Origin: a virus
IMG/VR virus record: IMGVR_UViG_3300023179_000336
Span: 1 to 32,004 of that record
Length of the DNA: 32,004 nucleotides
Reading direction: 5' to 3' (one strand)
In this document: in pieces, positions 1,835 to 22,968 of the stretch
How the letters are laid out: every line of letters begins with the position of its first letter
Numbering within the stretch: position 1 is the first letter of the stretch
The notes under the pieces: generated by a model
What the model was told of the DNA's origin: nothing
Seen by the model: only the letters and a program-made list of their open reading frames with translations
Databases searched by the model: none
Made by a program: the position numbers and the translations under genes

Positions 1835-3025
1835 ATGAGTAACAATTACGGCCCAACAATTGCAACTTCTGGTCTGACATATTGTCATGATATGTCAAAC
1901 ACACAAAAGTCATTTAAAGGTGCCCCTACCACCAACCTAGTTGATCCATCTTGGACCAGCTGGACTATCGATGGGTCAGGTCAGGGCTCTATAGGTACAC
2001 GAACTATTACCAGTACATATGAATGTGTGATTTCCGATTCTGCTTCTAATACACGGCAAAATATATATGTTACTGGAATTTCTGCAAGTACAACCTATAC
2101 ATTTTCAGTACAGTTTAACAAAATAACAGGAGCCCCTACATTACGATTCCAGCTTCAGGCATACAATGGCGGCTCGTACATCAGTACTATGATATTTGCC
2201 ACTACTGCACAATTAGGGCTCTCAGATATAGATGGCTGGCAAACTGCAAAGTACACAGTAACTACACCGTCTGGTACTACACAGGTATTGTGGTTTATGC
2301 AAGACGGTGACGATTATACTACATACACCCATTCGTTTAGATTAAGAAATGCACAATGCGAACAACAGAGTTTTCCGACACCATTTGTGGTAGGTACTAG
2401 ATCAAATACACAGGCGGTTATAAATTTAGCTAGTTCTTCTGTAACAACTGCAACTAGTTTGACCTATGCTAGCGATAACACTTTTAGTTTTGACGGTTCT
2501 ACAAATTATATAACCGTTGGTGCATTATCCGGACCTTTTGGATCATTTACGGTTAGCGTTTGGTTCTATTCAACCAGTGTTTCTAACTATAGAAATCCTA
2601 TTGATTGTAATTTTAACTATAATGCTACAACTGGAAACATTGGACCTAGACTTGAACAGAATAGTTCTGGTAATTTAACTTGGGTAGTTAGTGGTAACAC
2701 TGGTAATAATAGTATTGCAGATAACTTTACTGTACAATCGTCGGGGCTACAGGCCAATACATGGTATAACGCTGTCATAACTTGGACTAACGGATCAGCA
2801 AACACCTATTTAAATGGAGCGCCTGTAACAGTTAACGCTAGCACTCCTAATGGATTTGTAAATGTGTTTAATAATGTAATTATCGGCAAAGGTTTTCACT
2901 TAGACGCCGCATCAACAAGGTCATTTACAGGAAAAATTCCAGTAGTAAAAATATACAATAGGGCACTGTCGGCTACTGAAGTTGTACAAAATTTTAACGC
3001 CCTGCGGGCAAGGTTCAATGTTTAA
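1835..3025 (+). CDS. LamG/ConA-like lectin-fold protein, array member 1, with CBM-like N-terminal module
   Basis: This 396-residue protein opens with the array's N-terminal signature (GPTIATSGL, then a D and NTQKS). About residues 30-165 form a beta-rich module resembling carbohydrate-binding jelly rolls (GISASTTYTFSVQF near 82). A linker ending TPFVVGTRS follows near 182-190. A LamG-type domain runs from about 215 to the end: SFDGSTNYITVG, then SVWFYS, then W-Y-N-A-V-I-T-W and YLNGAPV. It ends with the family tail RALSATEVVQNFNALR. I saw no signal peptide or membrane segment. It starts 23 bases after the fibre gene and probably lies in the same transcript. The likely role is a fibre-tip or virion-surface sugar-binding protein; the fold call is strong and the role is inferred. 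Confidence 0.8.
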   Translation: MSNNYGPTIATSGLTYCHDMSNTQKSFKGAPTTNLVDPSWTSWTIDGSGQGSIGTRTITSTYECVISDSASNTRQNIYVTGISASTTYTFSVQFNKITGAPTLRFQLQAYNGGSYISTMIFATTAQLGLSDIDGWQTAKYTVTTPSGTTQVLWFMQDGDDYTTYTHSFRLRNAQCEQQSFPTPFVVGTRSNTQAVINLASSSVTTATSLTYASDNTFSFDGSTNYITVGALSGPFGSFTVSVWFYSTSVSNYRNPIDCNFNYNATTGNIGPRLEQNSSGNLTWVVSGNTGNNSIADNFTVQSSGLQANTWYNAVITWTNGSANTYLNGAPVTVNASTPNGFVNVFNNVIIGKGFHLDAASTRSFTGKIPVVKIYNRALSATEVVQNFNALRARFNV

Positions 3026-3039
3026 CTGAAATAACTACT

Positions 3040-3354
3040 ATGACTACTAATTTAGATTACGAAATTGCTCATTTAGCAATAGAAGATTATAAGGCAGGGC
3101 TATATCCTGATGTAGTGGCCGCTGCCGAAGCACGAGGTGCTAATCTACAAGTAGTTAATCTAATGATTGGTAATGAATCAGTTATTACAGAAGAAGTATT
3201 TGTAGAAGAATCAGTTAAATTAGCAAGAGTTTCTGTGTGTAATGGTTGCGATCAATTGATGCCTGAAAATAACGGCACATGTAATCAATGTGCATGTCCC
3301 ATATCTATGTTGGTGAACATGGAATTTAAATCCTGTCCTATAGGAAAGTGGTAA
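3040..3354 (+). CDS. Small protein with C-terminal zinc ribbon
   Basis: This 104-residue protein has an acidic, helix-prone first half (about residues 1-60). Its C-terminus has cysteines at 67, 70, 81, 84, 86 and 99, arranged as CxxC, then CxxCxC, then a final CPIGKW. That pattern fits a zinc ribbon, and short proteins ending this way are common in T4-like phages, where they have no assigned role. It sits between two LamG genes, 14 bases after the first and directly abutting the second, so it is co-transcribed with the array. The same ribbon occurs as a free-standing protein at 18741. It could be a transcription accessory factor or an assembly factor; the sequence does not decide. Confidence 0.75.
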   Translation: MTTNLDYEIAHLAIEDYKAGLYPDVVAAAEARGANLQVVNLMIGNESVITEEVFVEESVKLARVSVCNGCDQLMPENNGTCNQCACPISMLVNMEFKSCPIGKW

Positions 3355-4077
3355 ATGTCTGTAAACTTTAAAATTGCTGTGCAAATCTCAAACTTGCAAC
3401 TACTATTAGATGCAAGTAATGTCAAGAGCTACTCTGGAACAGGCACGACTTGGTACGACATCAGCGGAAACAATAGACACTTTACTTGGAACGGCACCAA
3501 CGGCGCACAGTTTACACGATCTGGTTCAAAGTCATATTTTTCTACAAACGGCACGCGAGCACAAGGTCCTGCAAGTAATAGCTTTGGCATTAATAACGGC
3601 ACAGGGTATACTATCGTTATGGTATCTACTACACAATCGGATAACAGCAATAGTTCTTTCAAATTTTATAATACCTCTGGATCAAACAGTGCTTCAACTA
3701 GTAGAGGTATTTTTAATCATCCTGGCTGGGCGAACTACACGATGTATTTTGATCAGTCAACCTGTTGTAATGCTGATCAAAGAACACAGTACACTTTTGG
3801 ACTTTCAGACATGCGTAACTTTAGGATATGGACATTTAGAAGTAGACTGTATGATAGATGCATTTTTATGAATGGAGTTAATTATATAACCAACTCAACC
3901 TATGCAGGAAATATTAACTTAGGATCAGCCGCAGTAGATTTAGGTAGTAGTGACGAGTATGGTGGTGCCGCCTCAAACTGGAACGGACAGATAGCCTACT
4001 TTGCAGTTTACAACACAGGGTTAGATGATACAACAATTTTAAATTTAACTAATGCATTGACAGGGAGATTCCAATGA
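3355..4077 (+). CDS. LamG/ConA-like protein, array member 2
   Basis: A 240-residue single-domain member. Near residues 19-43 it has the signature LLLDASNVKSYSGTGTTWYD, followed by ISGNNRH, the usual start of this LamG subfamily. The middle is rich in S, N and T and has one Cys pair (STCCNADQ). The end (GLDDTTILNLTNALTGRF) is a diverged form of the family tail. The stop overlaps the next start as ATGA. The GGGAGATTCCA just before supplies the Shine-Dalgarno sequence of the next gene. The likely role is carbohydrate binding on the virion, inferred from fold and context. Confidence 0.75.
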   Translation: MSVNFKIAVQISNLQLLLDASNVKSYSGTGTTWYDISGNNRHFTWNGTNGAQFTRSGSKSYFSTNGTRAQGPASNSFGINNGTGYTIVMVSTTQSDNSNSSFKFYNTSGSNSASTSRGIFNHPGWANYTMYFDQSTCCNADQRTQYTFGLSDMRNFRIWTFRSRLYDRCIFMNGVNYITNSTYAGNINLGSAAVDLGSSDEYGGAASNWNGQIAYFAVYNTGLDDTTILNLTNALTGRFQ

Positions 4078-5345
4078 GTCTGTCAGTAAATCTGTCAATT
4101 GTAATAAACGGATTGATATTCAATATGGATGCTGGAAACATTAAAAGTGTTTCTGCTCCTACAACAAAAAACATTGCAACGTCCATAACTCCTAGAGGTA
4201 TAGGCGACAACGGAACAACATACAGATTCACTTCTGGTATTGAGAATGTTTACATTCCTACAGTAGGTTGGATTAACAGCAATTATGTTGATATGTATAA
4301 CGATTACAACGGCGGATCTGGTAATTGTTGTCCCAGCCCATATGGTTACGGAGATAGTATACCCGTAACAGGTAGTACATTGTATACCTATGCTATTTTA
4401 TATAAAAGCATAAACAGATATACCAATGCTAATTGGATGTATCATTACGAATTTGGAGCATCGGGTTACATCACAGAATACGGTGTACACATGGTCGGCG
4501 GACATAGCGGACAAGAAACACATTTAGGTGATGATTGGTATTGGAGCCGCGCTAAGTTTACTACTAATGCAAATGCTACAACAATCAATACTGGTTCTTG
4601 GATGTATCAGTATGCGACCTATAATAGGTTATATGTTGCTAAAATATTAATAGCTCCCGGAGACTGGACAGGCCTACATCCTAGTCAGTGGCCAGCATTG
4701 AACACAGTGAGTACAACTGTCAATGATTTAAGCGGCTTTGGCGCCAACGGTACAATTACCAACGCAAGTCAAAGTACAACTACTAATCCAAGCGCGGTTA
4801 CTTTAAACGGTATAAATCAATATATTCGAACCAATCATGCGAACTATTCGAGTGCGTGGTCACCGAACGGAGTTAACGGTAACACCTCAATGACTGTTGA
4901 AGTAGTATTAAAAACATCAGACAGTGGCTTTATTGTAAGTAGAGAGTGGAACGGCGGCGGTCAATACAATTACACCATGACTAATGATTCTTTTGGACTC
5001 CATGCCAATGCCACAGGATATAGTGTGGGTTATTCATCTATTGCTACAGGATCTCCGGTACACATGGTATGGTGGATGACTCCTTCACAAATGGGGGTTT
5101 ATAGAAACGGCCAGGTATATGTCAGTGCTACTAGTCACGGATTGAGCGGCAGCGGAGGTAGCTCCGGGTCTCAAAGTGGCGGAACATCTTTTGGAACTCT
5201 TTATCCCTATGGCGAAGGCTGGGGAGGTAATACAGGATTCAGTTTAGCAGGAGATTATTATATTGCAAGAATGTATAACAGATTATTATCTGCCAGTGAA
5301 GTTACACAAAACTTCAATGCTATTCGAGGAAGGTATGGATTATGA
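4074..5345 (+). CDS. LamG/ConA-like protein, array member 3, with long inserted module
   Basis: A 423-residue protein. Its N-terminal signature (VINGLIFNMDAGNIKS) is separated from the LamG part by an insert of about 180 residues (about 32-215), rich in Tyr, Trp and Gly and with one Cys pair (NCCPSPYGYG). I do not recognise the insert; it may be another sugar-binding module. LamG resumes with NDLSGFGANGTITN near 216, then LNGINQYIRT and WWMTPSQMGVYRNGQVYV. A Ser/Gly-rich loop (about residues 355-375) precedes the tail RLLSASEVTQNFNAIRGRYG. Both ends overlap their neighbours by ATGA, so translation is probably coupled. Confidence 0.75.
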   Translation: MSLSVNLSIVINGLIFNMDAGNIKSVSAPTTKNIATSITPRGIGDNGTTYRFTSGIENVYIPTVGWINSNYVDMYNDYNGGSGNCCPSPYGYGDSIPVTGSTLYTYAILYKSINRYTNANWMYHYEFGASGYITEYGVHMVGGHSGQETHLGDDWYWSRAKFTTNANATTINTGSWMYQYATYNRLYVAKILIAPGDWTGLHPSQWPALNTVSTTVNDLSGFGANGTITNASQSTTTNPSAVTLNGINQYIRTNHANYSSAWSPNGVNGNTSMTVEVVLKTSDSGFIVSREWNGGGQYNYTMTNDSFGLHANATGYSVGYSSIATGSPVHMVWWMTPSQMGVYRNGQVYVSATSHGLSGSGGSSGSQSGGTSFGTLYPYGEGWGGNTGFSLAGDYYIARMYNRLLSASEVTQNFNAIRGRYGL

Positions 5346-6544
5346 GCCTAACTCACGGATCATCAATAGTTAGGGATGGGTTGACCATGTATTTTGATAC
5401 TGCCAACACTCAAAAATCGTGGAGGGGGGCACCAGCTACTAATTATATTCCAAACCCTTATGCTAGTTATAACGGTTCATCTTTTGTATTTGGATATAAT
5501 TATCAAAATTTAGGAGCAACTTACACATACCGAACAGGAGTCGACAATCCCATTAATTCTCCTGGGGTATTAGAATATTACACTGGCACTACTGGTTATA
5601 AGTATTTTTCTGTAGATTCAACCAGTCTTCCTGCAACCGGCACATATACATTTTCATACTATGCTAGATTAGTAGGTACACCCGCCGGTGGAAATAATGC
5701 ACCAATTGACAACCAACTATGGCGAGCAAACGGTAGTGATAGGTCAGTAACCGGTGATTGGAATCCTACATTTACATTTGATTGGAAAAGATACTTAACT
5801 ACCGGTCCTGCAGAAGCATCAACAATTTTACAGTATTTTCCAGTACATTCTGGAAGTATTGTAGGCGGCTACACAATCCAATATTGCGGGTTTCAACTAG
5901 AAACTGGAAGTTATGCAACTCCCTTTGTTGTAGGAACTAGAAGTTCCACACAGGCTGTCGTTGATTTAACTGGTAAAAATTCTATTACGGCAAGTAGCCT
6001 AACTTATAATAGTGATAATACATTCACATTTACTAAAGCAAGTGCAAACTATCTCACTTTACCGTTACTATCATCAGTGAATACCAACGTGTCGGTTTCT
6101 TGCTGGGCTTATGTTACATTAGGAACAGCGGGCTGTATTTTTGAAAGCGGCTACGGGTCAGGATTTGGTGTTGGCATCGGCAATAATTATTATACAGCCG
6201 CCGACCCGGGGAATAATATTGTTGTATTATTTCCCTTAGTTAGATGGATATCAACAGGTGTATCATATGGATCAACTGGTTGGAAAAATGTAGTTGTAAC
6301 TATGGACGGTTCTGCTGTCCCAAGTGTATATTTAAATGGTTCGTTGGTGGGCACATATTCTGGAACTGCTCCGTTAACTCCAGTGACAAATTCCTATGTA
6401 GGTAGAAATGTAGGAGATGAAGGTAGTGCTACTGACCGTGCATTCGATGGTAAAATTGCCTCTGTAGCTTTTTATAATAGAACATTATCAGCCTCGGAAG
6501 TCACCCAAAATTTTAATGCATTACGGGGAAGATACGGATTATGA
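5342..6544 (+). CDS. LamG/ConA-like protein, array member 4, with CBM-like N-terminal module
   Basis: A 400-residue protein with the same plan as array member 1. The signature SSIVRDGLTMYFDTANTQKS leads into a jelly-roll-like module at about 35-180 (TGTYTFSYYARLVG). The linker LETGSYATPFVVGTRSSTQ lies near 183-202. LamG follows from about 205 (VDLTGKNSITASSLTY, later VSCWAYV and YLNGSLVGTYSG). It ends with the tail RTLSASEVTQNFNALRGRYG. The shared NTQKS...GAP and TPFVVGTRS segments mark it as the nearest relative of member 1, so the two probably arose by duplication. Starts and stops overlap neighbours by ATGA. Confidence 0.78.
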   Translation: MSLTHGSSIVRDGLTMYFDTANTQKSWRGAPATNYIPNPYASYNGSSFVFGYNYQNLGATYTYRTGVDNPINSPGVLEYYTGTTGYKYFSVDSTSLPATGTYTFSYYARLVGTPAGGNNAPIDNQLWRANGSDRSVTGDWNPTFTFDWKRYLTTGPAEASTILQYFPVHSGSIVGGYTIQYCGFQLETGSYATPFVVGTRSSTQAVVDLTGKNSITASSLTYNSDNTFTFTKASANYLTLPLLSSVNTNVSVSCWAYVTLGTAGCIFESGYGSGFGVGIGNNYYTAADPGNNIVVLFPLVRWISTGVSYGSTGWKNVVVTMDGSAVPSVYLNGSLVGTYSGTAPLTPVTNSYVGRNVGDEGSATDRAFDGKIASVAFYNRTLSASEVTQNFNALRGRYGL

Positions 6545-6741
6545 TTTACAAAATTTACGGTAATCAGTTGTCCGTAGCATTATCAAATAATGCTAAATTT
6601 ATTATCTTTTCATTTGATGGCAAGTATGCATTGGTTAGATCTGACACTGAATTGACCAATGTCATTGAACAATATGATGAAACACAAATGAATTCTCTAT
6701 ACTCAGATCATTTATATAGACAACCTTGTAAGGACTGTTAA
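6541..6741 (+). CDS. Small hypothetical protein in LamG array (66 aa)
   Basis: I do not recognise this gene. It is coupled by an ATGA overlap to the LamG gene before it and ends one base before the next LamG start. The predicted chain is short, beta-rich at the N-terminus and acidic later, and ends in QPCKDC. Translation is supported by the overlap and by the good GGGGAAG upstream. A chaperone or adaptor for a neighbouring lectin-fold protein is possible but not shown. Confidence 0.6.
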   Translation: MIYKIYGNQLSVALSNNAKFIIFSFDGKYALVRSDTELTNVIEQYDETQMNSLYSDHLYRQPCKDC

Positions 6742-6742
6742 C

Positions 6743-8023
6743 ATGGCAATATTTTCTGGACCGAATTTAGTAACAAACGGACTTATACTAAATTTAGATA
6801 TTTCAAATCGTAAATCCTATATACGATCCGTGTCATCGTCGCTGATCAATACTGAAGCATGGGCAGTAGGGCAAACAGACAGTGTAGGTTTATACAGTGC
6901 TAACGGATCTGCAGGTGAAAACGGAAGAATATCTGGAACAGATCCTTGGGGTAATACCAGTACCCTATGGGAAACCAGAGCCAGCGGCAATGGTAACGAC
7001 GACGGAGGATGGAATACTGGTACTCTTTCAATAGATCGTACAAAACTATACAGATTTTCTGTTTGGGTAAGAAGAACCAGTTCTTCAAGCGGCGGTACAT
7101 TCTATCTAGGAACAGGTTCTAATGGTGGTGTGTTTTCTACGCAAGACGGTGGTGAAAAAGGTAATCCATATTGGGAATGTGTTGGCACCGGATCTCTTGA
7201 CCAAAATCAATGGTATCTGGTATGCGGGCACATTTATCCCGCAGGCACTACCTACACTGGAAATCATCCAGATACTGGATATTATCTTCCAGGCAGCGCA
7301 AATAAAATAAGGAACGTAGGATTCTGTAATATTGTCAGCGACTTGAAATGGGGTCCTACCAGTACAACGGGTCAGCATCGTTGCTATCATTATTATTGTG
7401 GTGATAGTACTACCAGACTTAACTTTGCTGATCCACGGGTTGACCTATGTGACGGGACTGAACCAAGTATCAGCGAACTAGTTATCAACGGTGCCACCAT
7501 GATAATGGATACAAGTGAAAGAGGGAATCATCACAGATTATCCAATGGTTATATTCCCACTGCTACTGCTCCAGCAAGATTTCAACTAGATGGCACTAAT
7601 CACGGCTTCGTAAGAGCAGCCGCACTTAACGGGGCCACAAATAATTGTACTGTGGTAATTTTCTATAAGACCACAGACACACAGGAATTATGGGTAAGAG
7701 GAAATCAAAATAATTCATGGTATCTGAGTGCAAGTGCAAGTAACAATTACTATCACGGGAATGTTGGAGCACCTACTAATTTTGTAGATCTAAATACTGT
7801 TGTTAGACCAGACAGCCCAACAAACTATAGAAATGGAGCATATCATATGTGGGAAGCCAAAGGCGTAGATTTTAGTGCTTGGACTTACTTTGAATGGTTC
7901 TTGTATCCTAGTGCATGGCAGTTAGCAGGAGATGTATCTAAAGTTCTGGTTTATAATAGATTTATTACAGCAGATGAGTCAGCACAAAATTTTGCTTCCT
8001 TTAGAACAAGATATGGATTATGA
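6743..8023 (+). CDS. LamG/ConA-like protein, array member 5, with long N-terminal module
   Basis: A 426-residue protein. The start (FSGPNLVTNGLILNLDISNR) matches the array signature. Residues about 35-235 form a carbohydrate-binding-like beta region (LYRFSVWVRRTSS near 95, WECVG, then GFCNIVSDLKWG). The LamG-like part begins near 255 (DTSERGNHHRLSNGY), continues with FQLDGTNHGFVRAA and ends with the tail NRFITADESAQNFASFRTRYG. This is the most diverged of the long members. It overlaps the fibrinogen-like gene by ATGA. The function is inferred to be ligand binding on the virion surface. Confidence 0.72.
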   Translation: MAIFSGPNLVTNGLILNLDISNRKSYIRSVSSSLINTEAWAVGQTDSVGLYSANGSAGENGRISGTDPWGNTSTLWETRASGNGNDDGGWNTGTLSIDRTKLYRFSVWVRRTSSSSGGTFYLGTGSNGGVFSTQDGGEKGNPYWECVGTGSLDQNQWYLVCGHIYPAGTTYTGNHPDTGYYLPGSANKIRNVGFCNIVSDLKWGPTSTTGQHRCYHYYCGDSTTRLNFADPRVDLCDGTEPSISELVINGATMIMDTSERGNHHRLSNGYIPTATAPARFQLDGTNHGFVRAAALNGATNNCTVVIFYKTTDTQELWVRGNQNNSWYLSASASNNYYHGNVGAPTNFVDLNTVVRPDSPTNYRNGAYHMWEAKGVDFSAWTYFEWFLYPSAWQLAGDVSKVLVYNRFITADESAQNFASFRTRYGL

Positions 8024-8784
8024 GCACATTTTATGGACTTAGTACTCGAATCTGCCGAACTGCGTTAGACTTATTAACGACCTATCCGTTTCTTTCAGGT
8101 AAGGACAACTACTATCTACTTTACCCTCAGGGTCCTAATAGCGTCGGAGTACTAACATATTGTGATATGACTATTGATGGTGGCGGTTGGATGATGATTG
8201 CTAGATCTCATCCTAGCATAGTTAACTATAATAGTAATAATTGGGGTTGGAGAGGAGGAGCCATTGGTTCCGCAAAAGATTTTGGCCAAGCATATCAATT
8301 AGGATGGTGGACATTCTTTAATGGAAATACAACATTTTCAAGTTATATATTTGGGAACAGAAATAATATCAATGATAATACTTGGGGGGCATTTGTTTAT
8401 AAAGTAACAATTTCAGATTACACCACATTTACAACAAGTGATACGCAACAAGGTGGTACTTCATATACAACTTTAAAGTCAAACACAAGTATATATGGTA
8501 GTACTAGTTTTCCAGGTATGCAAGGAGCAATTGGTTATCCAATATCGGGTACATCAAGTAATTTTTATTATATGCGAGATTGTTGCGGGTTTACCGGATA
8601 TGGTGCTTATGCAACATTTATGAACACGGCCTATTGTGGTAATGACAGCGTCGTTTATTATTCGGGACCGTGGTGCGGCGGCAGCAGTACTGATGGTAGT
8701 GGCAATTTCTTATCAGGGACATATCTGTCAGGCGGTGGGAATAGGTATGGTGGTACAAATCAATATATGATAATGGTGAGATAA
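8020..8784 (+). CDS. Fibrinogen-C-like domain protein within the LamG array
   Basis: A 254-residue protein whose body is unlike LamG. At about residues 28-62 it has YYLLYPQGP, then YCDMTIDGGGWMMIAR (Cys48, Gly54-Gly56, Trp57), matching the opening of fibrinogen-related (FReD) domains. There a YCDM..DGGGW motif follows a Y-x-I-x-P strand. Two Cys pairs near the end (DCCGF; a YCGN / WCGG pair) may form disulfides. It closes with a Gly-rich stretch and QYMIMVR rather than the LamG tail. FReD domains bind sugars and acetylated groups in animals, and similar domains are known in phage fibres. The ATGA coupling to its neighbours says it belongs to the same set of surface proteins. The domain call is fairly firm; ligand and location are inference. 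Confidence 0.72.
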   Translation: MSTFYGLSTRICRTALDLLTTYPFLSGKDNYYLLYPQGPNSVGVLTYCDMTIDGGGWMMIARSHPSIVNYNSNNWGWRGGAIGSAKDFGQAYQLGWWTFFNGNTTFSSYIFGNRNNINDNTWGAFVYKVTISDYTTFTTSDTQQGGTSYTTLKSNTSIYGSTSFPGMQGAIGYPISGTSSNFYYMRDCCGFTGYGAYATFMNTAYCGNDSVVYYSGPWCGGSSTDGSGNFLSGTYLSGGGNRYGGTNQYMIMVR

Positions 8785-9014
8785 TGACAACTATAAAAAT
8801 TTTAACTAAAACTGATACAATGACAATAAATGGAACTATTGATTTTCCAGTTGAAGAAATGCCAGTTGGTGCCAAAGGGTTTAGGTTCAATGGGAGTAGT
8901 CTTGCGACCCTAGAAAATCTAGAGAAATATTGGAAATTTGTAGAAGAAGTTTTTGCGGAAAGCAATATTTCTACTGATGATTACATAACATTATTAGAAA
9001 TTGAATGTCAATAA
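8784..9014 (+). CDS. Small acidic hypothetical protein (76 aa)
   Basis: I do not recognise it. The start overlaps the stop of the fibrinogen-like gene by one base (TAATG). The chain has a short beta-rich N-terminus and an acidic amphipathic C-terminal half (LATLENLEKYWKFVEEVF), and ends in EIECQ. Like the other small ORFs here, it directly follows a lectin-fold gene. A role as chaperone or capping partner is speculative. Confidence 0.6.
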   Translation: MTTIKILTKTDTMTINGTIDFPVEEMPVGAKGFRFNGSSLATLENLEKYWKFVEEVFAESNISTDDYITLLEIECQ

Positions 9015-9097
9015 ATTACAACCCAAAAAGTACTAAACTAGGGGCAGATTCTGTGGGATATACTAATGATTATATTTTCTTGGACAAAGTACACTAA
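9005..9097 (+). CDS. Possible 30-residue ORF or gene remnant
   Basis: An ATG inside the end of the preceding gene opens a 30-codon frame (MSINYNPKSTKLGADSVGYT...) that ends before the next LamG gene. The upstream TTGAATG is a poor ribosome-binding site. It lies in the only sizeable gap of the array (9015-9155), so it may be the relic of a lost gene. Nothing else was seen in the gap except the AAAAGGA and TAAGG sites before position 9156. Confidence 0.25.
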   Translation: MSINYNPKSTKLGADSVGYTNDYIFLDKVH

Positions 9098-9155
9098 AGA
9101 GTATTAAGCAAAAACCTCCCAAAACTTCAATAATTTTAAAAGGAATATAAGGCAT

Positions 9156-9830
9156 ATGAGTTTAGCACACGGACCAGCAATCGTTACATCTGGATTGCTT
9201 TTATACCTCGACGCAGCCAATTCTAAAAGTTATCCGGGATCAGGCAATTTTTGGTATGATATTAGTGGTAACGGAAATAATGGCACATTAGTAAACGGAG
9301 TCGCATATAATAGCGGCAATGGCGGAAATTTAGTATTTGATGGAGTCAATGATTATGTAAGCGTTAATTCTAATTTAGTACCAACAAACATTACAGTCAA
9401 TGCTTGGTTTTCTATTTCTGCTTCAGCATCACAAAGAATTTTAAGATGGAGATTTTATGGGTATGGTATCACTTTGACTGCTAACAACGCTATAGATATT
9501 GATGTTTGGAGTACTGTAAGTAACAACATAGGTGTTAGTTCTACTGATAATTATATTAGCCTAAATCAGATTTATCTTGCAACAATGACTGTGGGTAGTT
9601 CTGCAATAAGTTTATATGTAAATGGAACTTTGATTAATTCTGCATCGTTGGCAGCGAACTCAATATATTATCAGTCAGACGGAACTGGATTAGCCATAGG
9701 TACAGACGCCGGAGGATTAAACAAATTTTTGAATGGGAAAATATATTGCACTACTATATATAACCGCGCCCTTTCGGCAACCGAAGTTCTACAAAACTTT
9801 CAGGCTCTACGTGGGAGGTATGGAGTATAA
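9156..9830 (+). CDS. LamG/ConA-like protein, array member 6 (minimal form)
   Basis: A 224-residue single-domain member and the cleanest example of the family. AHGPAIVTSGLLLYLDAANS, then KSYPGSG and WYDISGNGNNGTLVNG lead in. LVFDGVNDYVSV marks the first LamG strands, then ITVNAWFSIS, LYVNGTLI and the tail RALSATEVLQNFQALRGRYG. It has no extra module, which makes it a good reference for the repeating unit. It starts after a 141-base gap, with TAAGG 3 bases and AAAAGGA 11 bases before the ATG. Its final GGGAGGTATGGAG is the ribosome-binding site of the next gene. Confidence 0.82.
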   Translation: MSLAHGPAIVTSGLLLYLDAANSKSYPGSGNFWYDISGNGNNGTLVNGVAYNSGNGGNLVFDGVNDYVSVNSNLVPTNITVNAWFSISASASQRILRWRFYGYGITLTANNAIDIDVWSTVSNNIGVSSTDNYISLNQIYLATMTVGSSAISLYVNGTLINSASLAANSIYYQSDGTGLAIGTDAGGLNKFLNGKIYCTTIYNRALSATEVLQNFQALRGRYGV

Positions 9831-9832
9831 CT

Positions 9833-10480
9833 ATGGCAGTATATCATAATTCATATATTCCTATGACCGGTCTAGTACAATGTCTGGATGCTGCCAATCC
9901 ACGTAGTTATCCGGGGTCCGGTAGTACATGGTATGATATATCTGGCAATGGACACAATATAGCATTAGGAGCAGGTGTTAGTTTTCAAAGTGGTGTTGGT
10001 AAGGGAGTTTTACAATTTGCTAAAGACGCAACCGGCACAGGTATAAATTCAACATTAAATTTAGCATCAAGCAATAATACAGTAATATCATTTGTAAGAA
10101 AATTGTCTGATGGTGATGTTGGTAGAACAATCACTGCACTAAACAATAACTGGTTAATGGCACACCATGATAATACATGGGGCGACTATTATGCTGAAGG
10201 TTGGGTAAATGATATAGGCAGTCCAACTAGCGATACTATATGGAGAATGTTTACTGCTACAGGAAATGTTGTGACAGATGTTTGGGCAATTTATGCTAAT
10301 GAAACATTATTAGCAAGTAATAGCAACGGTAGTCAGGGTCCAAATGGTTGGAATCTTAACGCACAATATAGTCAATATTCAAGTTGTCAAATAGCAAATT
10401 TGTTAGTGTGGAATAGAGTATTAACAACAACTGAAATTTCACAGGTGTTTAATTCTTTTAGAGGAAGGTACGGAGTATGA
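9833..10480 (+). CDS. LamG/ConA-like protein, array member 7 (minimal form)
   Basis: A 215-residue single-domain member. It has YIPMTGLVQCLDAANPRSYP, then GSGSTWYDISGNGHN. The strands after that (VLQFAKDATGTGINSTL, VISFVRKL) are more diverged, and the tail is RVLTTTEISQVFNSFRGRYG. It begins 3 bases after the previous stop and ends with an ATGA overlap into a small ORF. The shared lead-in and tail with member 6 show recent common origin. Sugar binding is likely but untested. Confidence 0.78.
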   Translation: MAVYHNSYIPMTGLVQCLDAANPRSYPGSGSTWYDISGNGHNIALGAGVSFQSGVGKGVLQFAKDATGTGINSTLNLASSNNTVISFVRKLSDGDVGRTITALNNNWLMAHHDNTWGDYYAEGWVNDIGSPTSDTIWRMFTATGNVVTDVWAIYANETLLASNSNGSQGPNGWNLNAQYSQYSSCQIANLLVWNRVLTTTEISQVFNSFRGRYGV

Positions 10481-10674
10481 TAAAGATAAAATATGTAGAT
10501 CCTATTTCTAAAAATGATGTTATAGAAGAACTTGACGATTCGATTGTTGATGTTGGTAAGTATTCTATCAACTTGCATAAAACCTATTTGTGCAAAGATG
10601 AATGCTACGGAGAAAATTGTAAAATATGGCAAGAAGTAAATGATCGTTTTATATTAGTTGGAGTTCAAGATTAA
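10477..10674 (+). CDS. Small Cys-containing hypothetical protein (65 aa)
   Basis: I do not recognise it. It is coupled by ATGA to the LamG gene before it and abuts the next one. The chain is acidic in the first half (EELDDSIVDVG). It has three close cysteines (LCKDECYGENCKIWQ), spacing C-x3-C-x4-C, and ends in VGVQD. The cysteines could bind a metal or form a disulfide. Its size and position match the other small ORFs of the array. Confidence 0.6.
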   Translation: MIKIKYVDPISKNDVIEELDDSIVDVGKYSINLHKTYLCKDECYGENCKIWQEVNDRFILVGVQD

Positions 10675-11448
10675 ATGCCTGTATTTTATGGTCCTACTAT
10701 AGTTACTGACAGTTTACAGATACATCTAGACTGGGGTAGTCTGAAATGTTATTCGGGATCAGGAACAACATTTTCAAACATAGCATATCCTTCAAGGAAT
10801 AACGGCTACATTAAAAATAATGTAATCTACTCAGCAATTAATGGCGGAATATTAACAACAGGTGGAGCACAAAGCGGTGCATTATATAATGTAGGAGACA
10901 GGATAGACATAAACACCAGTGCCGCCGGCGTAGATAGGTTTGGTGCTAACAGCTTTAGTATTATGGTCTGGGTTAATCAAATTTCTTCATCTGGTAGAAT
11001 ATTAAGTACAGGTAGTGCTGGCACAGGAACTGGAAATAGTGATAATTGTATATGGTATATGTGGATGGATACTAGCCAATACTATTGGTGGAATAGTGCC
11101 GGAGGCGGCGCGAACAACATCACAGCATCAGGAACATGGCACACTCCCGGAACGTGGCAACTGATTGGATTTACCTATAGTTATAATGAAGGCGGTAATG
11201 ATATAGTTAGATGTTATACCAACGGTGTTTTACAATTTTCAGGAACAACTCCAACCGCATCACATAGCTACATAGATCGAAGCGGCGAAACAACAATGCA
11301 GTGGACATTAGGTGGCGGATATAGCAGCAGTTGCTATAATCAAAATTCGGCCTGTAAATTTGGACCATTTTCATTGTACAATAAAAAATTATCAGATTTA
11401 GAAATGCTACAAAACTTTAATGCATTGCGCGGGAGATACGGCATATGA
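10675..11448 (+). CDS. LamG/ConA-like protein, array member 8
   Basis: A 257-residue single-domain member. It has YGPTIVTDSLQIHLDWGSLK, then CYSGSGTTFSNI, in place of the usual LDAANSKSY...WYDISG. A LamG core is visible in NSFSIMVWVNQISSSGRIL, later WQLIGFTYSY and VRCYTNGVLQFSG. The tail is KKLSDLEMLQNFNALRGRYG. The last 36 bases, together with the start of the next gene, form one copy of a 43-base exact repeat found again at the next junction. It overlaps the next gene by ATGA. Confidence 0.77.
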   Translation: MPVFYGPTIVTDSLQIHLDWGSLKCYSGSGTTFSNIAYPSRNNGYIKNNVIYSAINGGILTTGGAQSGALYNVGDRIDINTSAAGVDRFGANSFSIMVWVNQISSSGRILSTGSAGTGTGNSDNCIWYMWMDTSQYYWWNSAGGGANNITASGTWHTPGTWQLIGFTYSYNEGGNDIVRCYTNGVLQFSGTTPTASHSYIDRSGETTMQWTLGGGYSSSCYNQNSACKFGPFSLYNKKLSDLEMLQNFNALRGRYGI

Positions 11449-11455
11449 GTGTATT
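11413..11455 (+). repeat. 43-base junction repeat, copy 1
   Basis: This segment spans the stop/start overlap between two LamG genes and is identical to 12597-12639. It codes QNFNALRGRYGI without its first residue, then the overlapping ATGAGTGTATT of the next gene. It carries the GGGAG ribosome-binding site. The flanking coding sequence differs on both sides. Confidence 0.95.
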
Positions 11456-12632
11456 TTGTGGTCCTAAAGTATTTGGTAGCATATCTCCGAGTTGGGTAAT
11501 TGATCCTCTTTCCTTTAAAAATCAAGAAATTTTTGGCACTAATTTTTATTCTAATTCTAATTTTTCGGATGGCGCCGGCATTCCTCAAGAAAGCGGAAGT
11601 AACGCAACAAACACAATCATACAACTTGCTAATCCCGGCTCGACACCTTTTGTATTAGAGCAAACAGCTGGCACACCGTATACAGAATATCAAATAAATT
11701 TAACTACACAATTAATAGCAAATACCACATATTGTATGAGCGGATGGTATGCGGAATCTAGCGACTATAGCTGTGCTGATGGCAGCAGAATGTTTCACTC
11801 TCGTGCATTCAGCAATTCAGGGGCACATAATGCAACTGGCATAGGAATAGGAACAACAATAAAAACTCGAGTAGTTAACGGTATAACATGGAGATATTGT
11901 TACGAATTAATAACAACACCCTCAGATTATAGTAACAGCTTTAACTGGTATGTCGGATATGGAAATAACACATATACAGGCCACAGATATTATACAAATT
12001 TAAAATTAGAAAGAGGCACATTTCCTTCTATTAGAAACGTTTTAGCAGATTTTTCTCATACATATTCAGTTAACGGAACTAGCTTTGATAGTCAAGGGGG
12101 AATAACACTCGATGGAATTAATGATTATGTAAGGATTCCATTTGACAGCACATTCAATGTAACTTCTAATCCGTTTTCAGTAATTGTATGGGCAAAAAGA
12201 AATGACTCGTCTACTGGTTATAACGGATTAATAACTGCTGACAGCTCGGGCGATAATACTTGGAAAATTTTTAAAGATATTAACGAAGCCTACTATAAAG
12301 CTCGAGTTGGTAATACAATAGTTGCGATTACTGGAGGGTATACGGTAGGAAGATGGCATCAGTTTGCTTTTACTAGAGCAGGATCGGGTGCATCTACTGT
12401 AATTAAAACTTACTTGGATGGCGTTGAAGTAAACAGCCTGACTGGATCTATAACAGACCCTGCTAGTTTTTCTAATGATCTTGCACTAGGATCTTATAGA
12501 CTCAACGACGCTGTTTCTGGATATTTTCTTATGAATCAAACTATAGGTCCAATATATTTTTTCAGAGGAGCACTAACAGCACAGGATATATTGGATAACT
12601 TTAATGCATTGCGCGGGAGATACGGCATATGA
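11445..12632 (+). CDS. LamG/ConA-like protein, array member 9, with CBM-like N-terminal module
   Basis: A 395-residue protein. The N-terminal signature has decayed (FCGPKVFGSISPSWVIDPLS). A beta-rich module at about 30-205 has LIANTTYCMSGWYAESS near 90 and ends YYTNLKLERGTFPSIRNVL, a linker form typical after carbohydrate-binding-like domains. LamG follows from about 218: GGITLDGINDYVRIPFDS, FSVIVWAKRND, WHQFAFTRAG and TYLDGVEVNS. The tail is GALTAQDILDNFNALRGRYG. Both of its ends lie in the 43-base repeat, so the whole gene is flanked by direct repeats and could be lost or gained by recombination between them. Confidence 0.78.
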   Translation: MSVFCGPKVFGSISPSWVIDPLSFKNQEIFGTNFYSNSNFSDGAGIPQESGSNATNTIIQLANPGSTPFVLEQTAGTPYTEYQINLTTQLIANTTYCMSGWYAESSDYSCADGSRMFHSRAFSNSGAHNATGIGIGTTIKTRVVNGITWRYCYELITTPSDYSNSFNWYVGYGNNTYTGHRYYTNLKLERGTFPSIRNVLADFSHTYSVNGTSFDSQGGITLDGINDYVRIPFDSTFNVTSNPFSVIVWAKRNDSSTGYNGLITADSSGDNTWKIFKDINEAYYKARVGNTIVAITGGYTVGRWHQFAFTRAGSGASTVIKTYLDGVEVNSLTGSITDPASFSNDLALGSYRLNDAVSGYFLMNQTIGPIYFFRGALTAQDILDNFNALRGRYGI

Positions 12633-12639
12633 GTGTATT
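12597..12639 (+). repeat. 43-base junction repeat, copy 2
   Basis: Identical to 11413-11455 and placed the same way over the stop/start overlap. The two copies are 1184 bases apart, the start-to-start distance of one LamG gene to the next. Confidence 0.95.
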
Positions 12640-13360
12640 CGCTGGACCTAATATTATAACCAGCGGTCTTGTTTTAAAACTTGATGCCGTTAACTCTAAA
12701 AGTTATAACGGAACTACAACATGGTATGATATGAGTCCATTGAGGGCCAACGGTACCATGTACGGAACTGTTCCTACATCTTCTGACGGCGGCGGCTGCT
12801 TTGATTTTAGCACAATTTCAGGCACCTACTCCGGCGATGCTAGTTTAGGATTCACTTTTGCTAGCAATATGATTCCTACAACAGGTAGTTTTACATTGTG
12901 CACTTGGCTTAAAAATCCTCCTGCCAGTGTAGGGCAATGCGGAATGTTTAGCAATGCCGGTGGTGCAAACGGATATAGATTCGGTGTTGGTCGAGATGCT
13001 TGTTATGTGCTAATGTCAGGAGCAAGCGGCGAAGGATACTCCGAGCCACAACTATCTTTCAGTTCTACTTTAAACACTACATTGTGGTATAATGTCTGCA
13101 TGGTGTTTGACAGAGTAGGCACCAATAGCGGTGGTACACCCCAGTGGCAACTTTATCTAAATGGAGTATATCAAACAGCTACCAATATGGGTACTCCTCA
13201 ATCAGCCGCAACAACCACGGCAGCTCCGGGGCTGGTTCGAAGTGCTTGTTGCGGGCTATATACTGGGAAATTAGCTACTTTTTCCGCTTATAATCGTGCT
13301 TTGAGTGTTTCCGAGATAATGCAAAATTTTAACTGTCTAAGGAGTCGTTTTGAGATTTAG
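12629..13360 (+). CDS. LamG/ConA-like protein, array member 10 (last of the array)
   Basis: A 243-residue single-domain member. It has FAGPNIITSGLVLKLDAVNS, then KSYNGTTTWYDMSPLRANGT. The core shows GSFTLCTWLKNPP, LWYNVCMVFDR and WQLYLNGVYQT. The tail RALSVSEIMQNFNCLRSRF lacks the final GRYG, as fits the last gene, which need not provide a ribosome-binding site. It is followed by a 142-base non-coding gap with late promoter motifs, so the array transcript probably ends near here, though I saw no strong terminator. Confidence 0.78.
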   Translation: MSVFAGPNIITSGLVLKLDAVNSKSYNGTTTWYDMSPLRANGTMYGTVPTSSDGGGCFDFSTISGTYSGDASLGFTFASNMIPTTGSFTLCTWLKNPPASVGQCGMFSNAGGANGYRFGVGRDACYVLMSGASGEGYSEPQLSFSSTLNTTLWYNVCMVFDRVGTNSGGTPQWQLYLNGVYQTATNMGTPQSAATTTAAPGLVRSACCGLYTGKLATFSAYNRALSVSEIMQNFNCLRSRFEI

Positions 13361-13502: not shown

Positions 13503-13739
13503 ATGGGAACATTACCGGGCACCGGTCAACAAATTAGTATGGGCAAAGTACAAAAAGCCTATAATAATGTAACTCCTGGTACAGGAGGTAATGCTATAGC
13601 TGGAAGTCAAAATGTTAGGTTGAGTGCCAGTCTAGGAGCTAACTATGGAGGTAAGTCGGCTGGAGCGGCTATAAGTTTTAGTTCTACCTTTGGTGGTTTG
13701 ACTACTCCTTACTCATATCCAGGACCCGGCGGATCATAA
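13503..13739 (+). CDS. Small fibre-like virion protein (78 aa)
   Basis: The chain is rich in G, S and A and low in charge. The ISMGKVQKAY near residue 11, the QNVRLSASLG in the middle and the AISFSSTFGG near the end follow a pattern (IS(M/L)G.V ... V.LS..LG ... ISFS...GK) that I associate with short phage fibre and virion proteins. It ends PGPGGS. It is the first gene after a perfect TATAAATA and has AAGGA 7 bases before the ATG. A structural role is inferred; the exact place in the virion is unknown. Confidence 0.6.
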   Translation: MGTLPGTGQQISMGKVQKAYNNVTPGTGGNAIAGSQNVRLSASLGANYGGKSAGAAISFSSTFGGLTTPYSYPGPGGS

Positions 13740-13755
13740 TTTTTTTAGGATGAAA

Positions 13756-14235
13756 ATGGTTAAACGAAAATTTAATATAGATAAAATACTAAAATTAGCA
13801 GCAAAAGGCCCTTCAGAATGGGAACTAGACAATATTATATGGGGAGATAGATTATCTAATCCTAAAACACTTTTGCTATTTTTAGAAAGAATTAAAACTT
13901 TAGAATCTTTAGCTAAATCTGCTTCCGCTGATGAACAAAAAGAGTTACAGATACTGCGAGAGCTAGCCGACGATCTTAATGAAGAAGAAGTAGTTGAAAT
14001 GCTGTCAGACGATGAAGAAACTGTCAAGCACAATTTTATAGAATCTTTGGCAAGGCAAAATGCGCTAGAAGTTTTATGTAAAGATAGGATGAGCATTGAA
14101 TCTATGACAGTGATGTGCAAATTAAGCCCAAATGATTTTATTCTAGTATCCAAGCGCACGCAGGATCTAATAAATTCAATTCACGAATTAGTTATTCAAG
14201 GGGAAACGTTAAGTAGCGATGTGGCGGGAGCATGA
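13756..14235 (+). CDS. Conserved unknown protein of T4-like phages, about 159 aa
   Basis: A helical, acidic protein. It opens VKRKFNIDKILKLAAKGPSE, then WELDNIIWGDRLSNPKT; the K(F)NIDKLL..AAKGP..WEL start is familiar from uncharacterised proteins of aquatic T4-like phages. About residues 55-95 are very acidic (ADDLNEEEVVEMLSDDEE). I chose the second in-frame ATG because AGGA lies 5 bases before it; the ATG at 13750 overlaps that AGGA and has no site of its own. It overlaps the glycosyltransferase start by ATGA, so the two are coupled. No function can be assigned. Confidence 0.7.
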   Translation: MVKRKFNIDKILKLAAKGPSEWELDNIIWGDRLSNPKTLLLFLERIKTLESLAKSASADEQKELQILRELADDLNEEEVVEMLSDDEETVKHNFIESLARQNALEVLCKDRMSIESMTVMCKLSPNDFILVSKRTQDLINSIHELVIQGETLSSDVAGA

Positions 14236-14885
14236 AAAAAACAGTTTTTAGCTCAAGTCAATGGTCTTTAAAAAAAAGTAAACTGGCAGTTTTAGTACCT
14301 TGTAGAGATATTTTACATTCGGCCCATGCATTGTGTTTAACTGAACTCGTGAAACTTAATACCATGAACAACATAGATACACATGTTGTTATGGAAGCTA
14401 GCACTATTCTTTTAACCCAGCGTGAAAGACTGGCATTAGAGGCTCAAAATATTGGTGCAGATTACATGCTGTGGCTAGACAGCGACATGGTTTTCCCTGC
14501 ATCTACAGCACTTAGATTACTAGCCCATAAAGAACCCGTGGTAGCGGCCAATTATATTAGGCGTCAACCGCCCTACAAAGGCGTAGCCTATCAAACCATA
14601 GGTGATTGGCAAAATCCTTTACCATACGAAACATATGATGAACTTATAGAAGTAGAAGGTGTTGGTATGGGCTGTATGCTGGTTAAAACTGAAATTTTAG
14701 ATAAAATCAAGCGGCCTTGGTTTGAATTTGGATGGACCAGTAAAACAGACGATTGGCTAGGCGAAGATATGATATTTTGTCAAAAAATGACCGCAGCAGG
14801 ATATACAGTAAAAATAGATACTCAGTTGAGTATGGAAACTAGACATCTAGGAACCTATGCATTTGGTCCTGATCTATTAAATTAA
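14232..14885 (+). CDS. GT-A fold glycosyltransferase
   Basis: A 217-residue protein with the GT-A plan. A nucleotide-binding start (KLAVLVPCRDILHSAHALC) leads to the metal-binding D83-S-D85 in WLDSDMVFP. Then come VVAANYIRRQPPY, a middle EVEGVGMGCMLVKTEIL, and the acidic WLGEDMIFCQKMTAAGY that commonly holds the catalytic or acceptor-side acid in this group. Such enzymes move a sugar from a nucleotide sugar to an acceptor. Being in a late, structural operon beside a fibre-like gene, it may glycosylate a virion protein rather than DNA or the host surface; this is inference. It ends 9 bases into the convergent Nudix gene. Confidence 0.82.
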   Translation: MKKTVFSSSQWSLKKSKLAVLVPCRDILHSAHALCLTELVKLNTMNNIDTHVVMEASTILLTQRERLALEAQNIGADYMLWLDSDMVFPASTALRLLAHKEPVVAANYIRRQPPYKGVAYQTIGDWQNPLPYETYDELIEVEGVGMGCMLVKTEILDKIKRPWFEFGWTSKTDDWLGEDMIFCQKMTAAGYTVKIDTQLSMETRHLGTYAFGPDLLN

Positions 14886-15314
14886 ATTCAATAATATTTC
14901 TAGCTTGGTTCTTATGGTCTTGTTATTAAGGCTCTGCTTTAGAGCTTGATGTAAGGGTTTAGGATATAAGTTATAACTGCACCAGGCATATCCGCTATGT
15001 TCGTTGTTTAGAGAAGGAATAAATTCCTTGTCTACAATTAAAACATATGTATTGTAATTAAATTGTTGATCGTTACTGACAAAAAGTTCTAATGGCACTA
15101 TTTTTTTAATAGTGGGAATTTTCCCTACTTCTTCTTGTATTTCTCTACTCAAACCATCTAAGATAGTGTTATCATTGGGTTCTTTTTTACCCCCAACAAG
15201 CCCCCAAGCGCCTATTGTTTTTTCCTTGGTTCTTTGCACAAAGAGAAAACGTTTAGTTTCTTTGGCCAAAAACAGACCACCGCTACAAATAATTTTTACA
15301 GAACCAGTCTCCAT
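14877..15314 (-). CDS. Nudix-family hydrolase (diverged Nudix box)
   Basis: A 145-residue protein. It has FLFVQRTKEKTIGAWGLVGG, then KKEPND...REIQEEVG, as in Nudix enzymes that hydrolyse nucleoside diphosphate-linked compounds. The metal-binding R57-E58 and E61-E62 with G64 are intact. The loop before them is one residue longer than the standard box, and the first glutamate (after G-x5) is replaced by N or D. Activity may therefore be altered or weak. It is the last gene of the - strand unit gp14-gp15-Nudix; its start overlaps the end of gp15 by 19 bases. T4 also has a Nudix enzyme (NudE), though not at this place. Substrate unknown. Confidence 0.8.
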   Translation of the reverse strand: METGSVKIICSGGLFLAKETKRFLFVQRTKEKTIGAWGLVGGKKEPNDNTILDGLSREIQEEVGKIPTIKKIVPLELFVSNDQQFNYNTYVLIVDKEFIPSLNNEHSGYAWCSYNLYPKPLHQALKQSLNNKTIRTKLEILLNLI

Positions 15315-16696
15315 AACTGCTTATCATAAATCCCTTCAAAACTTTTAGTCCAAGATCCTTCTATCCATTTATATTGAACACCAGTGTATGAATTAGTTAT
15401 GTAGGTGACTGCAGTTTCAGTTAAAGAATTGAATAGTATATTCCATGTAGAACCATCCCATTCTACAATATCATTTGCATGAGCTTGAAAATCGGATGAA
15501 TCCAAATTTTTCCATGCTTGAGGACCTATATATCCTACTGTTCCATATTTAGGATTTACATTAATATCTTCCAATATCAAATATCTTGTTCCTGCAACCT
15601 TAACTTTAGGGTTATAATTCTCAGGATTAATTATAGCATCAACAGTGCCTCGACCTGAAATAATTGTGTTAGATGGCAGAGTAGCAGGATCAAAATTTAA
15701 TAGCATACGATTATCATCTAAAGGATCTATACTTATATAGGCAACTATTTCTGTATCGTTATCTTTGTTTAATCTTAAAGTGCTTAGGCCTGCTCTAAAT
15801 TGCCCAGGATATAAATCTAAAATATTATACCAACTAGCTCGATTACTAGGAACATTTAGTTCTACTAAACTTTGATTGCTAGCATTATTGTAGATCAGAC
15901 TGGCAACATTATTAATAACAAGTAGATCAAAATTACCTGGTGTTACTGTTACACTGCCTTGATCATCTCCTATATTACTGAGCACAGCGTCAGTTAAATC
16001 AAAATCGCTGGCTATAGTTCCAGGAACATTTGAAAATATATTAGCAATAATTTTTGTAATAATGCCCAGTCTCTTTACCTTGGCAGGTGGTGTTATCCAT
16101 ATAGGAGTTTCAAATATCATGGTCAAAATGTCTATATTTTGTTCCACGCCCTGTGGAATGTTTCTGCTGGTAAATATTTGACTTTTTAGAGTTACTGTAG
16201 ATAAACTGGTCCAGTCTATGTAGTTGTCTGTAGTCTGTAATTCAAGGCTGGGGTTAAACAATACTGCAATCTGTTCCCATATTTGGAATTTTTGATCAGT
16301 ATTAGTTGACCAAATATCTGCAGCAAAATCTGCAAGGTAAGGAGTTGGCATTAATCTTTCTACTGTGTAATTAGACCCTTGCTTATTAATATAATATTCA
16401 CCAGTTTCTTCATTGAAAGCACGCTCTCTAATGTGTATCTTGCCTACAAAACTAGGATCTTGAACTCTATTTCTATCATACTGTAGATCTTTTACATAGC
16501 AGGCAATAAAAGGTGCTGATGGTATAACATTTTCTGAATTCTTATTCAAAATACTAGCGACCTGTCTGTTCATATCACCATAACGAACAGGAACCCTAAT
16601 TATATTACCTTTACCATCTTTATAACTAAAGTTGCTGAGCATTCTAATGAATTGCCCGATATACCGTTTAAGTTGACCGTCATAAAAATGATCCAT
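15296..16696 (-). CDS. 15: Tail terminator / tail completion protein gp15 (enlarged)
   Basis: T4 gp15 caps the finished tail and joins it to the neck. This protein starts FYDGQLKRYIGQFIRMLSNF and continues IRVPVRYGDMNRQ, matching the gp15 opening (FYN..FRRY...FSNI...RVP..Y). The middle has YIDWTSLSTVTLKSQIF and IFETPIWITPPAKVK, as in the family. T4 gp15 is about 272 residues and this one is 466. The extra length is mostly C-terminal, including short aromatic modules (DIVEWDGSTWNILF and VQYKWIEGSWTKSF) of the kind also inserted in the sheath. It starts one base after the gp14 stop, so the two are translated together. Confidence 0.85.
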   Translation of the reverse strand: MDHFYDGQLKRYIGQFIRMLSNFSYKDGKGNIIRVPVRYGDMNRQVASILNKNSENVIPSAPFIACYVKDLQYDRNRVQDPSFVGKIHIRERAFNEETGEYYINKQGSNYTVERLMPTPYLADFAADIWSTNTDQKFQIWEQIAVLFNPSLELQTTDNYIDWTSLSTVTLKSQIFTSRNIPQGVEQNIDILTMIFETPIWITPPAKVKRLGIITKIIANIFSNVPGTIASDFDLTDAVLSNIGDDQGSVTVTPGNFDLLVINNVASLIYNNASNQSLVELNVPSNRASWYNILDLYPGQFRAGLSTLRLNKDNDTEIVAYISIDPLDDNRMLLNFDPATLPSNTIISGRGTVDAIINPENYNPKVKVAGTRYLILEDINVNPKYGTVGYIGPQAWKNLDSSDFQAHANDIVEWDGSTWNILFNSLTETAVTYITNSYTGVQYKWIEGSWTKSFEGIYDKQLWRLVL

Positions 16697-16697
16697 A

Positions 16698-17912: not shown

Positions 17913-17919
17913 AGTGATA

Positions 17920-17927
17920 TATTTATA
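17920..17927 (-). promoter_or_regulatory. T4-type late promoter element TATAAATA for gp14-gp15-Nudix
   Basis: A perfect TATAAATA on the - strand, followed by TATCACT and then the gp14 ATG. Transcription starting 5-7 bases after the element would give a leader of 0-3 bases. Confidence 0.7.
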
Positions 17928-17928
17928 G

Positions 17929-17935: not shown

Positions 17936-17940
17936 ATATT

Positions 17941-19957: not shown

Positions 19958-19986
19958 TGCAAAGAAATCCTTTAAGGAGATTGATA

Positions 19987-22965: not shown

Positions 22966-22968
22966 TAG

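Follow-up and report, generated by a model that had tools for sequence, protein, structure and literature searches.

A tandem array of LamG lectin-type genes beside the tail fibre of a T4-like phage: a probable set of exchangeable adhesin cassettes

Results

The LamG array

The 32,004-bp metagenomic fragment IMGVR_UViG_3300023179_000336, analysed here as the entire record and called the window, comes from a T4-like myovirus. At positions 1835-13360 it carries ten genes for LamG/ConA-like paralogues (A1 to A10), one fibrinogen-like gene and four small genes (s1 to s4), all co-oriented on the + strand and translationally coupled. The intergenic gaps are mostly −4 to +2 nucleotides (nt); wider spacers precede A1 (23 nt), s1 (14 nt) and A6 (141 nt). 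The array lies after a collagen-like fibre gene and before conserved tail and neck genes. A first-pass annotation, made from the sequence alone, had placed ten such paralogues here behind the fibre gene, and each was found where it had been drawn. The genes of the array are as follows.

1835-3025, + strand: A1, LamG protein with an inserted module, 396 amino acids (aa) (Laminin_G_3, 5.6e-21; 87% homologue in the L231 contig)
3040-3354, + strand: s1, small protein of a DUF6171-like, zinc-ribbon type (match to DUF6171 right at the cut-off, 6e-6)
3355-4077, + strand: A2, single-domain LamG-like protein with a degenerate tail (family profile; weak PHROG match)
4074-5345, + strand: A3, LamG-like protein with an inserted module (PHROGs and BLAST to paralogues; module-less L238 and L224 homologues match A3 residues 214-423)
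5342-6544, + strand: A4, LamG protein with an inserted module, an exchanged cassette (Laminin_G_3, 7.9e-16)
6541-6741, + strand: s2, small protein with a C-terminal CxxC
6743-8023, + strand: A5, LamG-like protein with an inserted module (PHROGs and BLAST to paralogues)
8020-8784, + strand: protein with a domain resembling the fibrinogen C terminus (FReD-like, of tachylectin/ficolin type), without the constant tail
8784-9014, + strand: s3, small protein after the fibrinogen-like gene
9156-9830, + strand: A6, archetypal single-domain LamG protein (Laminin_G_3, 4.3e-18)
9833-10480, + strand: A7, single-domain LamG-like protein, 34.7% identical to A6 (PHROG 24074, 9e-25)
10477-10674, + strand: s4, small protein
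10675-11448, + strand: A8, single-domain LamG protein (Laminin_G_3, 5.9e-10)
11445-12632, + strand: A9, LamG protein with a different N-terminal part, which matches a PHROG hinge connector at 3e-16 (Laminin_G_3, 7.7e-11)
12629-13360, + strand: A10, single-domain LamG protein at the end of the run (Laminin_G_3, 2.1e-15)

One iterated LamG hidden Markov model recovered ten out of ten, and BLAST linked most of them with E values down to 2e-36, so that the paralogy is not a chance resemblance. Pfam Laminin_G_3 (PF13385) scored above its cut-off in six members (A1, A4, A6, A8, A9 and A10); A2, A3, A5 and A7 were too divergent for Pfam and were detected only by the family's own profile or by PHROGs. 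A Laminin_G_3 match at E ≤ 0.001 was present in 95 of 101 homologues. The AlphaFold2 (AF2) model of A6 is a LamG jelly roll (pLDDT 91.2, pTM 0.89), which Foldseek aligned to LamG/ConA folds with TM-scores of 0.63 to 0.74 in the PDB, where the matches include lectin-type domains, and of 0.88 in BFVD.

Each protein has a variable core bracketed by a conserved lead-in, running through W.DISG, and a conserved tail, QNFNALRGRYG. The first-pass annotation had described the lead-in as shared and the tail as mostly shared. This holds with exceptions: the tail of A2 is degenerate (NLTNALTGRFQ), that of A10 diverges (NFNCLRSRFEI), and the lead-in of A9 is atypical. It had also credited five members with extra N-terminal modules or inserts. 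Five do carry an extra module (A1, A3, A4, A5 and A9, 395 to 426 aa); in four of them (A1, A3, A4 and A5) it follows the lead-in as an insert and so is not strictly N-terminal. Because the model of A4 was of moderate quality (pLDDT 72), we make no claim that its inserted module resembles a carbohydrate-binding module.

Copy number at the site

The array sits between the following conserved features.

15-1811, + strand: fibre with collagen-like repeats and a C-terminal S74 endosialidase-type chaperone (Pfam Collagen, 4e-24; Peptidase_S74, 4.5e-10; PHROG tail fiber)
13503-14885, + strand: right flank, conserved, encoding a 78-aa protein, a 161-aa protein and a glycosyltransferase-like protein, a block that relatives having 0, 2 or 3 LamG genes keep beside the fibre
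14877-18699, mixed strands: conserved backbone, encoding a nudix-type protein, a sheath stabiliser, a virion protein (− strand) and a gp13-like head-tail adaptor (+ strand)

Eighty relatives were retrieved by means of the head-tail adaptor protein; these and other contigs are cited below by L numbers. Many of them retain the block made up of the 78-aa protein, the 161-aa protein, the glycosyltransferase, the nudix protein, the sheath stabiliser, the virion protein and the adaptor. Between the S74 end of the fibre and this block there is no LamG gene at all in L080, L092, L098, L099, L102 and L106, in which the gap is only 13 to 61 nt. The same site holds two LamG genes in L104, three in L086, L182 and L231, and ten in the window. 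Adaptor identity among the relatives with 0, 2 and 3 LamG genes was 77 to 87%, the L182 adaptor lying outside that comparison. The locus is therefore hypervariable: a gene set fixed in content and order and free of recombination, which the first-pass annotation had named as the finding that would speak against its view, is not what the relatives have. LamG runs also occur in other uncultured contigs, with 13 genes in L284, 10 in L283, 9 in L298 and 8 in each of L279, L020 and L235. Among bacteria, a first genome scan was empty, and a second gave isolated LamG proteins or one pair, with no comparable rows.

Exchange of genes, cores and modules

The L231 contig is syntenic with the greater part of the window. 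DNA identity is about 70% in the backbone, 83% in the A1 region and 93% in A4; s1, A2 and A3 are missing between its A1 and A4. The 93% block runs from the A3/A4 junction to the tail codons of A4 itself, at the A4/s2 junction, with unrelated neighbours beyond each edge. The arrays of L043 and L072 have orthologous genes at positions 1, 3 and 5, and gene 4 of L043 holds the core of L072 gene 2 over about 555 nt with two mismatches (~99.6% identity), the start and tail staying those of position 4. The left crossover lies at about codon 37, just past W.DISG; the right crossover falls within the codons of the tail.

Discordance was also seen within the two-module proteins. The A1-type module is joined to other cores in L283 and L286 (module and core identities of 72/28 and 70/31%), and the A1 core stands under other modules in L083 and L248 (19/82%). 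The A4 module occurs with other cores in L172 and L245, and L283 and L279 share a core under different modules. Judged by these comparisons, inserted modules are inherited independently of the LamG cores. Within the window, 43 nt at 11413-11455 on the + strand (the A8 tail and A9 start) are identical to 12597-12639 (the A9 tail and A10 start), likely a recent copy made within this phage; the probability of the codon match at the A8/A9 joint is about 2e-5 before correction for 45 pairs. The ends of high-scoring segment pairs cluster near stop codons and at about +190 to +210 nt. Since this clustering is partly a product of lead-in conservation, it was set aside as evidence of recombination in its own right, and we relied on the discordance cases instead. 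Exchange of cores, modules and whole genes is thus visible alongside variation in copy number, as the first-pass annotation had supposed in speaking of a variable, reshuffled set of binding-type proteins.

These data bear on the idea that the array is an ordinary tail-fibre accessory family produced by tandem duplication and drift, with members that are fixed structural parts (spacers or decoration) under no selection for swapping. Ten divergent paralogues in a row would fit such a history, as would tails without general synonymous homogenisation and the finding that, in the L231 contig, A1 and A4 are still recognisable as orthologues and stand in the same order. It is at odds with a site at which close relatives have anything from 0 to 10 members, with array genes that are more similar than the backbone, with a near-identical core at a different position and with the independence of modules and cores. 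Already disfavoured on these grounds, it strikes us as unlikely.

Near its LamG array, L043 encodes (8802-11696) a 965-aa protein with a subtilase domain and a LamG region; L072 has a similar 975-aa gene.

The constant tail

In the AF2 model of A6 the tail forms a confident C-terminal helix (residues 208-222). The same tail ends bacterial LamG proteins that have no phage context, namely a Parcubacteria pilin-like protein and Bacteroidota secreted-type proteins, and it lies mid-chain in LamG domains of multi-domain proteins from S-PM2 and several contigs. We therefore regard it as a property of the LamG subfamily and not as a virion address.

The codons for RGRYG and the stop take the form CGN GGR AGR TAY GGN NTA TGA, so that the following gene's ATG, which overlaps this stop, has GGAAGG or GGGAGA upstream of it. 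Translational coupling through overlapping stop and start codons is common in phages. We examined codon choice in 372 genes, 199 of them tightly coupled to the next open reading frame (ORF) and 76 not. The second tail arginine was AGR in 179/199 coupled genes vs 48/76 uncoupled genes (p=7e-7), and the preceding glycine ended in a purine (GGR) in 132/147 vs 23/45 (p=1e-7). The first tail arginine showed no such bias (AGR in 70/151). Permutation within the 36 contigs that have both kinds of gene gave p=2e-4. In A10, the last gene of the row, the tail codons carry no Shine-Dalgarno (SD) signal. Given this bias toward an SD sequence in coupled genes, the tail is also the ribosome-binding site of the next gene. 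We found no description of such coupling combined with an exchange joint in the literature consulted.

The first-pass annotation had taken the constant tail for a common docking site on the virion. Its conservation across paralogues and phages is what a docking peptide would show, but a sequence that also occurs in bacterial LamG proteins and mid-chain, belongs to the fold of the domain itself as its helix, and has codons shaped as the next gene's ribosome-binding site, a constraint that accounts for part of the conservation, is very unlikely to be one.

The Parcubacteria pilin-like protein (GFTLLEILLVIAAIGILAAIVLIAINP; L312 5551-6672) has a phage-type LamG domain as well as the tail.

The fibrinogen-like gene and the small genes

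The protein encoded at 8020-8784 matched MFAP4, tenascin and tachylectin-5A in the PDB (phmmer E of 4e-5 to MFAP4). Its Pfam Fibrinogen_C score of 17.4 bits is under the cut-off of 22, and that of its L296 homologue, 31.9 bits, is above it. Homologues at 58 to 80% identity were present in 22 uncultured viral contigs, and none was found in the isolate phage collection. L296 also encodes (8942-10714) a 590-aa fusion of a LamG-type and a fibrinogen-like domain, which suggests that the two domain types may be parts of one structure.

The small genes act as partners of particular cassettes, although the pairing is not absolute. Wherever it was seen (L281, L235 and the window, three contigs of three), s4 lies directly upstream of A8-type genes. 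The s2 family precedes A5-type genes in three of four contigs, including L213 and L265, the exception being L298, where it precedes an A1-like gene. Genes with the A2 core are preceded by s1 in two contigs, the L248 homologue of s1 being 59% identical. A family related to s3 follows fibrinogen-like homologues in L274, L284, L288 and L298, as well as in the L296 and L299 contigs with fibrinogen-LamG fusions. The small proteins are possibly assembly factors. The notion that cysteine-bearing small genes precede cysteine-rich LamG genes was rejected: it holds for A2, A5 and A8 in the window but fails across contigs (p=0.28).

A family of ~85-aa proteins lies between LamG genes in other arrays (L015, L016, L017, L020, L284 and others) and is absent from the window. 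Its 29 ORFs, some from overlapping loci, share the motif VIF.VSEL..IDF.QV.ETS.ETVRKSVDG.KTFVKW...EEIL.IL.TEEW.

Genomic setting

The remainder of the window encodes T4-type structural and packaging proteins.

19981-29085, + strand: T4-like sheath, tube, head closure and large terminase (PHROGs)

As the terminase is only 54% identical to its counterpart in Pseudomonas phage PA5oct, the source phage is a distant, probably large member of the T4 superfamily of myoviruses. The glycosyltransferase-like gene and the convergent nudix-type gene (14232-15314) are kept beside the fibre locus in relatives. At 24857-25671, a 123-aa protein of unassigned family adjoins a T4-type head-closure protein with an endonuclease-like profile. 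The T4 late promoter sequence TATAAATA was not enriched between cassettes (2 sites vs 5.1 expected, one of them at 13414, beyond the array), and no Rfam elements were found.

Discussion

We think it probable that the array is a recombination-prone set of cassettes for lectin-type adhesins of the phage tail-fibre system, which would be made together, displayed on the virion and able to change adsorption. At its simplest a cassette would be one gene for a LamG jelly roll; in some cases a second beta-module is inserted, and in some a small partner gene comes with it. The tail codons would provide the last helix of the protein, the SD sequence (GGRAGR) of the cassette that follows, whose ATG overlaps the stop, and DNA identity for crossover, presumably by homologous recombination. 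Because the tail codons carry both signals, a cassette would be translated at any place in the row and would bring the next exchange site with it. All members are probably made together and carried on the virion, with the neighbouring fibre or its vicinity as the likeliest place; display of all of them is favoured over alternative expression because the ten genes share a strand and are translationally coupled. They would bind host surface glycans, and turnover of cores and cassettes would shift adsorption specificity. More tentatively, the row may be a dedicated, order-independent system. Its short invariant joint would act at once as helix, as ribosome-binding site and as homology for crossover, and phages could freely acquire or drop lectin genes, change their order or give them new cores; this would be a generator of virion adhesin diversity that uses neither a site-specific recombinase nor a reverse transcriptase.

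The proteins might instead be head or sheath decoration lectins, like Hoc, whose task is not to select a host but to hold the virion close to mucus, biofilm or cell surfaces. Relatives in PHROG 8510/10356 are classed as virion structural proteins under "head and packaging", and lectin-type folds on jumbo virions have been described (PMC7824862). This fits poorly with an array that comes straight after the fibre and ahead of tail genes, with the order fibre-LamG-LamG-LamG-tail fiber in Flavobacterium phage immuto, and with the fusion of LamG domains to long, glycine-rich proteins of fibre-like type, as in L290, and we consider it quite improbable. A role off the virion, with proteins released at lysis or placed on the infected cell, for example as decoys or superinfection blockers, would be compatible with the same family in secreted-type bacterial proteins and with the cysteine-bearing small partner genes, which are otherwise unexplained. 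No signal peptides were evident by eye in the lead-in sequences, and family members of both S-PM2 (S-PM2p176, with a LamG domain and the same tail) and immuto (two of its three tandem LamG genes) are annotated as virion structural proteins, which makes such a role highly improbable.

Several points weigh against the adhesin cassette reading. Many LamG folds are structural and do not bind glycans. Placement on the virion is argued from the annotation of relatives, S-PM2p176 and immuto. In the codon comparison, coupled and uncoupled genes were called from ORF positions, and the sequences are phylogenetically related. The tails of the window show no synonymous excess (131 identical codons vs 138 expected), so that continuous gene conversion is not seen there except at A8/A9. 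Finally, the base-level crossovers in L043/L072 and L231 could in principle be strain-chimera assemblies; the module and core mosaics, at 50 to 80% identity in several contigs, cannot be explained as assembly artefacts.

Jumbo Klebsiella phages (phiKp24, phiK64-1 and RaK2; PMC9700779) resemble the phage of the window in that a large myovirus co-encodes many differing, modular surface-binding proteins for broad recognition. Theirs are 5 to 14 beta-helical depolymerase tailspikes with N-terminal T4gp10-like docks, and phiKp24 has fourteen receptor-binding proteins (RBPs; PMC9700779), whereas the window has small LamG and FReD-like proteins, with no enzyme fold detected, in coupled cassettes. Neither Pfam nor PHROGs gave a gp10-like docking domain in the fibre or A1 to A10, fibre genes upstream of the window being outside this search. 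LamG domains are known from tail fibres and other virion components of jumbo phages (PMC7824862). The jumbo and cyanophage proteins S-PM2p176 (T4-GC 864) and that of S-SKS1 share Laminin_G_3, the lead-in and tail, and a virion-associated annotation, but are few genes or multi-domain chains; a long single-domain row and cassette exchange are not described in the portions of those sources used here (PMC7824862, PMC3037559). In immuto (NC_055915) a fibre is likewise followed by three tandem LamG genes (220, 233 and 458 aa) with the same tail, the 458-aa protein having an inserted module. It differs in having only three members, at 35% identity, and a different backbone, the likeness covering the fibre region.

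Phage RBPs that otherwise differ have been reported to share recently shuffled fragments (Smug et al. 2023, PMC10684548). That study makes no mention of LamG, lectins or tandem arrays, and exchange at our locus is concentrated at fixed joints in a tandem row. Diversity-generating retroelements also diversify surface-binding folds of phages, but they hypermutate one variable region by reverse transcriptase (DiGReF survey, PMC3521204), whereas whole cores are swapped here. No reverse transcriptase was found by Pfam or PHROGs among the window proteins scanned, a part of the ORFs of a 32-kb fragment. An invertible shufflon would involve an invertase and inverted cassettes; in the window every gene of the array has the same orientation. 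A literature search found no direct report of LamG arrays in phages. Many RBPs per virion and the shuffling of RBP domains are thus already known; what is new is the fold class at this scale, a row of 0 to 13 cassettes and a joint combining helix, ribosome-binding site and crossover.

Discussions of phage host range usually centre on one or a few fibres; here a widespread group of uncultured phages has rows of up to 13 lectin-type genes. The joint helps account for the constancy of the tail without assuming a docking site. It also yields a testable rule, that new binding modules would be accepted without loss of expression, since the joint carries the start signal of the next gene. This rule can be searched for in any tandem paralogue family and tested in cultured phages such as immuto.

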